Origin: Prauserella flavalba
Lineage (GTDB): Bacteria; Actinomycetota; Actinomycetes; Mycobacteriales; Pseudonocardiaceae
Assembly: GCF_003202235.1 (NCBI RefSeq)
Contig: NZ_MASU01000007.1
Span: 124,001 to 188,000, forward strand
Reading direction: 5' to 3'
Length of the DNA: 64,000 nt
Shown piece by piece: positions 2,067 to 59,944 of this stretch. Within the stretch, counting starts at the first letter, position 1. Each line of letters starts with the position of its first letter. A program made the translations under genes and the position numbers. A model generated the notes under the pieces. It had not been told where the DNA came from, did no database searches, and worked only from the letters and a program-made list of their open reading frames with translations.

Positions 2067-2318
2067 GTGAGGACGACGATCACGCTGGACCCGGACGTCG
2101 AGGCGCTCGTGCGCAAGCTGATGGCCGAGCGCGGACTGTCGTTCAAGGAAGCCGTCAACAGCGCGTTGCGCTCCGCGCTGGGCACCCCCGCCCGCGAGCG
2201 GTTCCACACCCCCACGTTCGCGATGGGCGGCCCCACCGTGCCGCTCGACCACGCGCTGCGCGTGGCCGCCGACCTCGAGGACGCCGAACTGCAGCGCAAG
2301 CTCGCCACCGGCCGATGA
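2067..2318 (+). CDS. vapB: Antitoxin of a VapBC-type module
   Basis: An 83-residue protein beginning RTTITLDPDVEALVRKLMAE, a ribbon-helix-helix type DNA-binding N-terminus (beta strand TTITLD, then helices). The C-terminal half (around TFAMGG and beyond) would be the toxin-binding tail. It starts with GTG at 2067 with no Shine-Dalgarno visible. The stop codon overlaps the toxin start (ATGA at 2315), the usual translational coupling of such pairs. Its role is to neutralise the PIN toxin and, with it, bind the palindromic operator upstream. Confidence 0.85.
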   Translation: MRTTITLDPDVEALVRKLMAERGLSFKEAVNSALRSALGTPARERFHTPTFAMGGPTVPLDHALRVAADLEDAELQRKLATGR

Positions 2319-2740
2319 AGATCGTCGACGCCAACGTCCTGCTCTACGCCGTCAACAGCGACGTGCCTCAGCACCGCGCCGCCCGCGAGTGGCTGGACGA
2401 GGCGCTCTCCGGCGAGGAGACCGTGGGCTTCTCGTGGATCGTGCTGCTGGCGTTCCTCCGCATCAGCACGCACCCGGGGATCTTCCCTCGCCCGCTGTCG
2501 CAGGAGACCGCGTTCGACACGGTCGAGGCGTGGCTGGGTCAGCCCGGAGCGGTGCTCGTTGAGCCGACGAGCCGGCATGCCGGAATGCTGCGCGGGCTGC
2601 TGGGCAAGGCCGGTACGGCGGGCAACCTCGTCAACGACGCCCATCTGGCGGCGATCGCGGCCCAGCACGGTGCCGAGGTGGTGTCCTTCGACGCGGACTT
2701 CACCCGCTTCGAGGGCGTGCGCGTGCACAAGCTCAGCTGA
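2315..2740 (+). CDS. vapC: PIN-domain ribonuclease toxin (VapC family)
   Basis: A 141-residue PIN-domain protein. The N-terminal VDANVLLYAVN gives the first acidic residue, a conserved E lies in the mid region, NDAHLAA gives the third acidic residue, and SFDADFTRF is the typical C-terminal motif. VapC toxins are Mg-dependent RNases that cut tRNA or rRNA when freed from antitoxin. It overlaps vapB by 4 nt. The gene converges on hsaB with only 40 nt between the stops, and that gap is filled by a hairpin repeat. The quartet of acidic residues looks intact, so the toxin is probably functional. Confidence 0.88.
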   Translation: MKIVDANVLLYAVNSDVPQHRAAREWLDEALSGEETVGFSWIVLLAFLRISTHPGIFPRPLSQETAFDTVEAWLGQPGAVLVEPTSRHAGMLRGLLGKAGTAGNLVNDAHLAAIAAQHGAEVVSFDADFTRFEGVRVHKLS

Positions 2741-2780: not shown

Positions 2781-6241
<3,461 letters not shown>

Positions 6242-20199: not shown

Positions 20200-20256
20200 T
20201 GTCCCCCAAGGCCACCTTTGTTGCGCTCAGCGCAACAAAGGTGGCCTTGGGGGACA
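20200..20256. repeat. Long palindromic repeat E1 (28-bp perfect stem)
   Basis: The 57-nt palindrome pairs base for base from 20200/20256 in to 20227/20229 around a single central base. The arm reads CCCCCAAGGCCACCTTTG then TTGCGCT. It begins 6 nt beyond the stop of the WS/DGAT remnant and separates it from the chsE1 promoter. Its outer 21 bases (from the five C's on) recur exactly in copy E4 at 59892-59944. No T-run follows on either strand. Terminator or insulator function is inferred. Confidence 0.85.
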
Positions 20257-26913: not shown

Positions 26914-26970
26914 CTGCAGTGAAGGCCACCTTGCCTGCGTTGAACGCAGGCAAGGTGGCCTTCACTGCAG
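26914..26970. repeat. Long palindromic repeat E2 (28-bp perfect stem)
   Basis: A 57-nt perfect palindrome with one central base: CTGCAGTGAAGGCCACCTT then GCCTGCGTT, mirrored. It lies between the converging stops of kstR (8 nt away) and the F420 oxidoreductase gene (12 nt away), so it serves as hairpin for both transcripts. The inner part of the arm differs from E3, E1 and E4, yet the pairing is complete. Confidence 0.85.
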
Positions 26971-48542: not shown

Positions 48543-48597
48543 CGCAGTGAAGGCCACCTTCACTGCGTTCGACGCAGTGAAGGTGGCCTTCACTGCG
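48543..48597. repeat. Long palindromic repeat E3, a palindrome built of two palindromic units
   Basis: A 26-bp stem closes on a 3-nt loop (TCG). Each half (48544-48566 and 48574-48596) is itself a hairpin with arms GCAGTGAAGG and CCTTCACTGC, so the element can fold as one long hairpin or two short ones. It lies between the converging aldehyde dehydrogenase and LuxR-type genes. Each unit is nearly the same as the single copy at 2750-2772. Confidence 0.85.
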
Positions 48598-48635: not shown

Positions 48636-51600
48636 CTACGGCGCGGCCTTGGTGAGCAGGCCCTTGTCGTAGGCGATGGCGACGGCTTCGGCTCGCCTGC
48701 TCGCCCCGAGCTTCGCCATCGCCCGCGACAGGTGCACGCTCACGGTCTTCTCGCTGATGAACAGCTCCTCGCCGACCTGGCGGTTGGTGCGGCCGAGCGC
48801 GACCCGTTCGAGCACCGAGCGTTCCCGTTCGGTGAGCAGGTCGACGGTCTCCCTCGGCGGAGCCAGGCCGGGCAGCGCGATCCGCCCTCGCTTCGCGAGC
48901 GCCCGCACGGCTGCGCCCAAGGGCACGGCGCTGAGCCGCTCGGCGAGCGCATGCGCCTCGCCCAGCTCGTGCGTGGGCCGCCCGGTGTCCCCGGCGGCCA
49001 GCAGGGCGTCGGCGTGGTGCAGCCGGCAGATCGCCTGCTCGTACACGGCGCCGTAGCCGAACGCCTCGGCCGCCTTGGCCCACAGCGCCGGGTCGGCGGG
49101 CCCGGTCAGACCACTGGCCGCGGCCTCGGCCCTCGCGAGCCACGCCTGCCCCTCCGGGCCGAGCGTGCCCGTACGCGGGCGGCCGTGTTCGGCGCAGTCG
49201 CGGACGTGGGCCAGCAGTTCCTCCCCCGCCGACACGGCGGCGCCCGCCGCGGCGACGTCGGCCCGCAGCCGGGCCGCGGCCGCCCACGCGGCGGCGGCCT
49301 CGATGCCGAGCGCGCCGACGCGGATGCCGCCGATCGCCTTCGGCGCCAGCTCCTCCAGCCAGCCGATGCCTTCGCGGCAGCGGCGCACGGCCTCCTCGTG
49401 GTCGCCCTGCCAGTACGCCAGCTCGATCCCGCCCGAGCTGGCGGCCAGCGCGATCCAGAGGTCCGAGCGGCGCTGGCTCCGCAGCTCGGGCACGAGCCGC
49501 TCGGCCTCGGCGAAGCGGCCCCTCGCCACCAGCAGGTGGACCCACGCCGTGTTCATGATCATGGTGACGGTGTTCGACACCGAGGAGTTGGGCCGCTCGC
49601 CGCTGTCCTCGGGCCAGTCGCCGCTGGTGTAGCGCAGGGCGACAGAGCGAAGCCGCGAGCCGATCCCGAACGAGCTCCACGTCAGCCCCGTCTCCTCGGC
49701 CCGCTCGACCGCCTGCCGGTACAGGCCGAGCGCGGCCGGGATCTCGCCTTGGTCGTCGTGGCTGAGGGCGTGGTAGTACAGCGCCCGCAGTTCGACGTGC
49801 AGCGCCCCCGCCGCACGGGCCTTGCGCACGGCCTCCACGAGCCGCTGCCGGGCCTCCTCCACCCGCGTCGCCGAGTCGGCCAGCGCGCCGAGCGTCACGA
49901 GCGCCGACGCCTCCGCGCCGCCGACCCCTGCCGCACGGGCGTCGGACACGGCGGTCTCGGCGCTCCACCACGCCTCGTCGAGCCGCTGCTGGCCACGCAG
50001 GATCTGCGCGCGCGTGGCGAGCACCCACGCCCTCGCGCGGCTCGGCTCGCCGTCGGCGACCAGCTCCCACGCCCGCTCGATCGCCCCCGGCGCCTCGTCG
50101 AACGTGCTGTCCAGGCTCAGCAGCGACTCCGCGAGCCTGCGCCACACCATCGCCGCACGAGCCCCGTCGAGATCGGGCGGCAGCGCCTGCACGGCCGAGC
50201 GCGCGAACGCGATCGCGCGCTCCGGATCGCCGGACACGCCCGCGTAGTGTGCGGCCTCCTGCAACAGCCGCAGCTCGTCGTAGCCTTCCGGCCTGCCGTC
50301 CTCCGGCACGGCGTCCCAGATGTCCAGCGCCTGCTCGATGTGCCGCAACGCCGTGCCGGGCGCGCCGAGCCGCTCCGCCTCGTCGGCGGCCTGCACCAGC
50401 GCGGTCAGCGCGGTGCGGAAGTCCTTGCTGCGCATGCTGTGGTAGGCGAGCTTGGCCTCGTGCCCCCTGCCCTGCGGGGTCGCGCGGATCCTGGCCGCGT
50501 ACGCGGCGTGCATGCGGGTCCGCTCGCCGGGCAGCAGGTCACCGTAGACGGCTTCCTGCAGCAGCGCGTGCCGGAACTGGTAGAAGCCGCGCTCGATCAC
50601 CAGCACGTGGTGTTGCACCGCCTCGCGCAGCGACTCGTCCAGTTCCAGCTCCCCGAGGCCGGACACCTCGGCCAGCGCGGCATGGGACACCGCGTCGCCG
50701 GCGACGGCGATCGCGCGCAGCACGCGGCGCGTGTCCGGGGCGAGCCGCTCCAGCCGCGCGAGCAGCAGCTCGGCGAGCCCCGCGGGCACGTCGTCCCCAC
50801 TGGCGCAGGAGGCGAGCAGTTCCTCGGCGAAGAACGGGTTGCCCTCCGAGCGGGCGACCAGGTCGGCCACCTGCTCCGCCGTGAGCGGCTCCTCGGCCAG
50901 CGCCTCGACGAACGCCCTCGCCTCGGCTTCGGCGAAGGGGTGCAGCTCCACGCGTTCGACGGCCGGCAGACGCACGAGCTCCACGAGCAGCGCGCGCAGC
51001 GGGTGCGTGCGGTAGACGTCCTCCTCGCGGTAGCTGCCGATCACGAGCAGGCGCTGCGACCGCAGCCGTGACGCCAGGAAGGACAGCAGGTTGCGCGTGG
51101 CGCCGTCCGCCCAGTGCAGATCCTCCAGCACTAGCACCACGGTGCGGTGCCCGGCGATCTCGGTGAGCACGCCGAGCACGGCGTCGAAGAGCTGCAGCTG
51201 TCCGAGGTCGAGGTCGGCAGGCAGCCGGGGCCGCACGTGGACGTCGGGCGCGGACAGCTGCGCGAGGTCGGGATCGGCCGCGGGCTCCTCCGCCACGAGC
51301 GGCAGCAGGCGGGCGAGCGCGGGCCGCGCGCGCACGGCGGCGGCGATCACGTCGTCGCCGGTGGTCGCGAGCGGAGCCAGCGCCTCGGCGAACGGGAGGT
51401 AGGGCAAACCGCCCTCCCTGACGTCGAGGCACCGGCCGGTCAGCACCAGCGCACCCTGCGCCCGCGCGTCGGCGGAGAGCTCGGTGAGCAGCCGGGTCTT
51501 GCCGACCCCCGCGTCACCGGCGAGCAGCACCGTCGAGGCCTCCGACCGCCCGGCACGCGCGACCGCCGCGCGCAGGCGCGCCAGCTCGTCGGCACGGCCG

Positions 51601-51641
51601 ACGAGCGGAATTCCGGAACCAAGGCGGGGCACGAGAAGCAT
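48636..51641 (-). CDS. LuxR-type large ATP-binding regulator (AAA + TPR-like + HTH)
   Basis: A 1001-residue regulator of the MalT/LAL type. An N-terminal AAA/STAND ATPase carries VGRADELARLRAAV, Walker A LLAGDAGVGKTRLL (about 36-50), and Walker B VVLVLEDLHWADG. A long helical TPR-like middle follows, and the last 65 residues are a LuxR helix-turn-helix (LLTERERSVLERVALGRTNR, then SEKTVSVHLSRAMAKLG). The ATG at 51641 puts the ATPase at the N-terminus; ATGs at 51662 and 51671 are alternatives. Regulatory target and ligand are unknown. Confidence 0.88.
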   Translation of the reverse strand: MLLVPRLGSGIPLVGRADELARLRAAVARAGRSEASTVLLAGDAGVGKTRLLTELSADARAQGALVLTGRCLDVREGGLPYLPFAEALAPLATTGDDVIAAAVRARPALARLLPLVAEEPAADPDLAQLSAPDVHVRPRLPADLDLGQLQLFDAVLGVLTEIAGHRTVVLVLEDLHWADGATRNLLSFLASRLRSQRLLVIGSYREEDVYRTHPLRALLVELVRLPAVERVELHPFAEAEARAFVEALAEEPLTAEQVADLVARSEGNPFFAEELLASCASGDDVPAGLAELLLARLERLAPDTRRVLRAIAVAGDAVSHAALAEVSGLGELELDESLREAVQHHVLVIERGFYQFRHALLQEAVYGDLLPGERTRMHAAYAARIRATPQGRGHEAKLAYHSMRSKDFRTALTALVQAADEAERLGAPGTALRHIEQALDIWDAVPEDGRPEGYDELRLLQEAAHYAGVSGDPERAIAFARSAVQALPPDLDGARAAMVWRRLAESLLSLDSTFDEAPGAIERAWELVADGEPSRARAWVLATRAQILRGQQRLDEAWWSAETAVSDARAAGVGGAEASALVTLGALADSATRVEEARQRLVEAVRKARAAGALHVELRALYYHALSHDDQGEIPAALGLYRQAVERAEETGLTWSSFGIGSRLRSVALRYTSGDWPEDSGERPNSSVSNTVTMIMNTAWVHLLVARGRFAEAERLVPELRSQRRSDLWIALAASSGGIELAYWQGDHEEAVRRCREGIGWLEELAPKAIGGIRVGALGIEAAAAWAAAARLRADVAAAGAAVSAGEELLAHVRDCAEHGRPRTGTLGPEGQAWLARAEAAASGLTGPADPALWAKAAEAFGYGAVYEQAICRLHHADALLAAGDTGRPTHELGEAHALAERLSAVPLGAAVRALAKRGRIALPGLAPPRETVDLLTERERSVLERVALGRTNRQVGEELFISEKTVSVHLSRAMAKLGASRRAEAVAIAYDKGLLTKAAP

Positions 51642-51702
51642 TGTCCCGTACCCCACCGACATTCCAGTCATGGTTTTCGCGCAGAGCATGACGCGCCCCG
51701 GC

Positions 51703-59891: not shown

Positions 59892-59944
59892 GCCCCCAAG
59901 GCCACCTTTGTTGCGTTGAACGCAACAAAGGTGGCCTTGGGGGC
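59892..59944. repeat. Long palindromic repeat E4 (26-bp perfect stem)
   Basis: A 53-nt palindrome with a single central base; the arm starts GCCCCCAAGGCCACCTTTG and continues TTGCGTT. It lies 6 nt after the aroG stop and 2 nt before the stop of the convergent RNase gene. It shares its outer arm with E1 while its centre (GCGTTGAACGC) is the same as in E2. Confidence 0.85.

Follow-up and report, generated by a model that had tools for sequence, protein, structure and literature searches.

Several described systems come close to the palindromes analysed here. REP, REPIN and BIME elements, tagged with GTAG or CGTC, are short extragenic palindromes present in hundreds of copies, singly or as inverted pairs, in species-specific versions, and are found mainly downstream of genes, between convergent or unidirectional ORFs (PMC3733652, PMC2817692, PMC3116915). 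In actinobacteria, 'I-shaped' and bidirectional intrinsic terminators consist of a strong GC-rich hairpin no more than tens of nucleotides from stop codons, the bidirectional ones being usable from both strands between convergent genes; I-shaped terminators lacking a U-tract were described in mycobacteria, where U-tract-free termination is disputed (PMC12288462). RNA-seq work assigned termination sites to hairpins within 80 nt of stop codons and found that poly-U was not required (PMC8355165). The DNA-uptake-sequence terminators, as far as they are mentioned in PMC2267715, are built from a short repeated motif whose close inverted pairs give hairpins behind genes.

The palindrome E3, located at positions 48543-48597 of the window (the whole 64,000-nt stretch of Prauserella flavalba DNA analysed here), belongs to a family that shares these traits with the three systems. 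Unlike REP, REPIN and BIME elements, the family comes without a RAYT and without a consistent tag, has a longer, near-perfect two-unit palindrome as its constrained unit and occurs in Pseudonocardiaceae. What sets it apart from the I-shaped and bidirectional terminators is that hundreds of putative terminator-like hairpins have one sequence in common and take one another's place at orthologous sites. The motif differs from that of the DNA-uptake-sequence terminators mentioned in the above source, and no uptake function is known for the elements. E3 is a dispersed REP-like palindrome that probably serves as a bidirectional transcript 3' end behind stop codons.

E3 and the palindrome family

In the initial annotation E3 was described as a palindrome made of two smaller palindromes, and analysis of its arms and loops confirmed this. 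E3 (CGCAGTGAAGGCCACCTTCACTGCGTTCGACGCAGTGAAGGTGGCCTTCACTGCG), a type A inverted dimer and, like all the palindromes below, listed without a strand, forms a 26-bp palindrome whose 26-nt arms are 100% complementary and separated by a 3-nt spacer. Each half has 10-nt arms GCAGTGAAGG/CCTTCACTGC and a 3-nt loop, CCA in the left half (48544-48566) and TGG in the right half (48574-48596). The centre at 48567-48573 reads GTTCGAC, versus GTTGAAC or GTTCAAC in the family, and it is at this same place that a core of about 60 nt is inserted in the sister species. E3 is flanked by an aldehyde dehydrogenase gene (PF00171; 46912-48513, plus strand) on the left and a convergent gene for a large LuxR-type regulator (AAA_16 and GerE domains; 48636-51689, minus strand) on the right, about 30 and 39 nt from their respective stop codons.

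The single half-palindrome at 2750-2772 (GCAGTGATGGCCGCCTTCACTGC) is, as annotated, one E3-type unit with two substitutions, one in the arm and one in the loop relative to the left half of E3. It lies 9 and 8 nt from the stop codons of the convergent genes for a PIN-domain (VapC-like) protein (2315-2740, plus strand) and an HsaB-like flavin reductase (2781-3314, minus strand). At up to three mismatches the window contained five monomer matches, versus none in 100 shuffles: the two halves of E3, the 2750 copy and the two halves of E2 (26914-26970), a type A dimer between convergent genes that was absent from the initial annotation. E2 is a perfect 28-bp long palindrome with imperfect halves and the inner arm GCCTGC. 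Two further dimers are of type B, namely E1 (20200-20256; GTCCCCCAAGG...), a perfect 28-bp palindrome lying 6 nt past the stop codon of a minus-strand gene, and E4 (59892-59944), which occupies most of a 61-nt convergent gap. E1 and E4 have the core AAGGCCACCTT and the centre in common with E3 and E2, with different arms.

The host genome (G000) contained 498 monomer sites at up to three mismatches and the reversed-pattern control none, so the caveat that the similarity might be a coincidence in a genome lacking further monomers clearly falls away. E3 is one of approximately 250 host copies of a near-perfect palindrome of 53-57 nt, laid out as a core AAGGnnnCCTT, a centre GCGTTnAACGC and a mirror core. 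Inverted pairs spaced by 30 nt dominate (51 of 77 chains), and the flanks of type A have the consensus CCRRCY, those of type B an A-rich stretch followed by CG. With a general pattern, 246 dimers were found in the host and 231, 90 and 0 in its congeners G002, G001 and G003, whose proteins are about 95, 88 and 81% identical to those of the host. A family-wide search, in which AAGG/CCTT and the centre were fixed (up to one mismatch) and seven pairs were left free, detected the dimer architecture in 31 of 297 Pseudonocardiaceae genomes.

No curated Rfam model matched in the window or in two further regions (L052 and L166), and no element matches were found in a plasmid and a phage collection. A single match in a viral contig was rejected, having a different loop (ATA) and no dimer partner and looking like a chance match in coding-type DNA. 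Literature searches, with subscription papers mostly outside their reach, returned no description of these repeats. A third palindrome family, GGGAGCAAGGGAGCTTTACTCCCG...CGGGAGTAAAGCTCCCTTGCTCCC, was seen behind host genes at C7:235557 (L027), C2:129779 (L042) and C2:662053 (L069).

The long stem as the constrained unit

Among 39 distinct copies aligned across genera, 110 double-change cells were counted versus 38.7±6.1 after shuffling (0 of 500 shuffles as high), and the long-stem covariation score was 0.328 versus at most 0.07 for slid pairings; because the aligned rows share ancestry, the shuffle counts should not be read as probabilities. The within-half pairs are invariant in this alignment because the search pattern fixes them. 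Within the genus 166 double-change cells were obtained against a shuffled maximum of 85, and with the arms left free 88.5% of the free pairs in the long stem retained Watson-Crick pairing, versus 66% of those in the half-hairpins (48% in type B). The double palindrome is accordingly mainly a property of type A and the long stem a feature of the family. The covariation links one half with the other, not the arms inside each half. Since the arms are lineage-specific yet compensated across the 31 genomes, the long hairpin is the constrained unit, its pairing being kept while the letters change from lineage to lineage.

Folding energies bear on two further claims of the initial annotation. For E3 a switch between one long and two short hairpins could occur, but at equilibrium it is unlikely, as the long hairpin is predicted at -53.3 kcal/mol versus about -35.7 kcal/mol for both halves, and it is not common to the family. 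Type B dimers (GCCCCCAAGG...) and E2 are perfect long palindromes with poorly folding halves (half energies of -1.8 and -9.9 kcal/mol). The growth of inverted dimers from monomers is at most partly supported. Both forms exist, but the direction of the covariation and the poor half folds of type B and E2 speak against it, and several single halves are truncated or interrupted dimers. In the sister species G002 the 2750 copy sits within a longer hairpin that spans from stop codon to stop codon, so the monomers need not be ancestral.

Position, turnover and enlarged forms

The position of the elements was surveyed in 1.18 Mb of the host, with genes called by a simple hexamer model and gene borders therefore approximate. 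The elements cluster in the first 35 nt or so behind stop codons. Of 77 elements, 50 were in convergent gaps, 23 in tandem gaps and 1 in a divergent gap, the other 3 lying within called genes; random intergenic placement would give about 9 convergent, 44 tandem and 21 divergent. Convergent gaps make up just 11.5% of the intergenic bases, and the excess of elements there was highly significant (p=1e-29), as was the avoidance of divergent gaps (1 observed, 21.5 expected, p=3e-10). Within tandem gaps, 21 of the 23 elements lay 2-35 nt past the upstream stop codon. The sister genome G002 gave a similar distribution (27 convergent, 7 tandem, 0 divergent), and in the sampled part of the host a family-like core was present in 49 of the 94 convergent gaps of at least 40 nt.

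Comparison of orthologous gaps in the host, G002, G001 and G003 demonstrated a considerable turnover. The E3 site is occupied by the short dimer in the host and by an enlarged form of about 107 nt with recognisable flanks in G002; in G001 and G003 the gaps are just 7 and 15 nt, so no hairpin is needed there, which counts against a role as transcript end. The most parsimonious history places the filling of the site in the common ancestor of the host and G002, loss in G001 and G003 being the other possibility. Types A and B were swapped at five orthologous gaps (C7:54790, C7:115400, C2:141999, C2:351459 and C2:353645), the gap at C2:320619 holds an element in the host but none in G002, and at C2:57248 and C2:276971 the host seems to retain only an arm remnant. 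The gap at C2:372812 is occupied in three species, each with its own version. At a given gap, copies are thus gained or lost, grow longer or give way to another type more rapidly than the adjacent genes evolve.

The gene beside E3 has its nearest named relatives in Amycolatopsis, Prauserella and Saccharomonospora. Eighty loci around such relatives in named genomes contained no dimers of the exact E3 architecture, and several carried other long palindromes. At two Amycolatopsis loci unrelated hairpins of about 22-25 bp follow soon 3' of the same aldehyde dehydrogenase gene (L086 7631-7685 and L088 7625-7674), in the place that E3 takes in the host. Separately, the convergent gap at C7:64908-65013 of the host (L019) is filled with tandem repeats of a CGACTCGCGGTCC-like unit, which differ in number and letters among the host, G002 and G001.

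The enlarged form carries a core of about 54-61 nt in the centre of the palindrome, in either orientation and in both element types. The core was matched 41 times in the host, 67 times in G002, not at all in G001 and G003, and a few times in other genera. Since short dimers are more widespread than the core, it is most simply read as an insertion into a pre-existing palindrome; at C2:12713 the short type B element of the host is matched in G002 by one that has its outer arms and flanks and, in addition, the core. The enlarged form of about 107 nt looks, as in bacterial MITEs, like terminal inverted repeats around a core. Unlike in MITEs, the core lands in the loop both ways, in both types and also within genes, and core and palindrome are thus separable. 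The MITE hallmark of target-site duplication was found at 0 of 41 and 0 of 32 sites at 3 nt or more, with 53-nt borders assumed and the true borders inexact.

Tandem arrays of the loop core were seen as well, with a half-site and an 84-nt period in G002 (C1:489208-489335; L212 9208-9335) and with a 53-nt period in a genome of another genus (G022 C4:323253-323446). Diverged copies are present in frame inside host genes at C2:71472 (L039), C2:293811 and C2:296766 (L050) and C2:394968 (L055); the genes encode an Fpg-type DNA glycosylase, an NRPS-like protein carrying the second and third copies in two of its regions, and a NuoM-like subunit. In three of the four copies the encoded peptide resembles xAARSASVxGGGGRRxGG. 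In the G002 orthologues the NRPS and NuoM-like copies are absent and the glycosylase copy is shared. These copies resemble the in-gene palindromic insertions of Rickettsia.

Mobilisation and the reading as transcript ends

Because copies turn over at the same gaps and each lineage homogenises its own arm sequence, the pattern points to copying between elements, by gene conversion or by some transposition system, with selection acting to keep the hairpin. Both the swapping and the lineage-specific homogeneity would follow from gene conversion between copies.

A location downstream of stop codons is a general feature of REPs (PMC3733652), and the position of the present elements may for that reason reflect tolerated selfish DNA, not function. 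Purely selfish miniature elements, moved by some DDE or other transposase, tolerated only behind genes and without a role in expression, would account for the rapid turnover and swapping at orthologous gaps and for the enlarged forms with their mobile core. This explanation is nevertheless unlikely: none of 73 cases showed a target-site duplication of at least 3 nt at the palindrome borders, inexact as these are, no autonomous partner was seen, and the compensation in the long stem is stronger than tolerance predicts, though a transposase could also select the stem.

The likeness to REP/BIME-type elements proposed in the initial annotation holds as far as abundance and form are concerned. The family is large, has monomer and inverted-dimer forms, and its 498 half-sites and 246 dimers far exceed 100 extragenic palindromic copies per genome, with the inverted pairs regularly spaced at 30 nt in 51 of 77 chains. 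The copies also sit behind genes in species-specific versions. IS elements are known to target REPs (PMC1525189), and here too one dimer is split by an IS whose protein has an rve integrase domain. This IS of about 1.37 kb sits in a type A dimer near its centre (G000 C7:27062-28475; L017 7062-8475), and about 17 nt of the dimer centre (CTGCGTTGAACGCAGTG) are found on both of its sides, consistent with a target duplication. The likeness does not extend to the tag and the transposase. GTAG or CGTC was not consistently present at the palindrome base, occurring within 6 nt in 5 of 82 and 9 of 64 flanks. The RAYT-like transposase that had been suggested did not materialise: none of the four genomes of the genus has PF01797, and of the 31 element-bearing genomes just 2 do, versus 61 of the 297 family genomes overall. 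That the elements are REP/BIMEs in the strict sense, that is non-autonomous DNA moved by a RAYT with dimers grown from monomers, is improbable given the missing PF01797 and tag and a covariation that runs between halves, not within them. The family is real, abundant and REP-like, yet it is not REP by the tag and the transposase.

That the palindromes act as DNA by binding proteins (at nucleoid or topology sites, in the way that gyrase, IHF and Pol I are bound by REPs of E. coli) would fit their two-fold symmetry, the conserved AAGGnnnCCTT core (in part a consequence of the search pattern) and the proneness of convergent gaps to supercoiling (PMC1525189), but is very improbable, as arm and core-spacer letters vary freely between lineages with pairing kept, which a sequence-reading protein would not readily allow, and tandem copies follow the upstream stop codon like RNA 3'-end elements.

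Under the reading as bidirectional transcript ends, the most likely role, an element transcribed from either side would fold into one hairpin of 23-28 bp, which would form the transcript 3' end for both neighbouring genes. Termination, which we infer, would consist in the hairpin terminating or stalling RNA polymerase without a U-tract; the hairpin may also protect the 3' end and limit converging read-through. As in Rho-independent terminators, a stable hairpin follows soon after the stop codon at E3. A U-tract after the stem was not seen, with no T-run at E3 and GC-rich element flanks, and a canonical terminator scan was negative.

It is possible, though for now a tentative picture, that an actinobacterial lineage uses self-homogenising palindromes spread by non-RAYT means as general bidirectional transcript ends, with the loop as a landing site for a mobile unit of about 54-60 nt that also inserts in frame into genes. 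If the elements are terminators, interchangeable copies of one sequence, mobile or converted, would close approximately half of the larger convergent gaps in the stretch of the genome that was sampled, and transcript ends would thus evolve by replacement, not by point mutation. Sister species, with their short, long, swapped and empty sites, would then provide a natural series for the disputed U-tract-free termination by actinobacterial RNA polymerase, and the same series bears on what moves palindromes without a RAYT.
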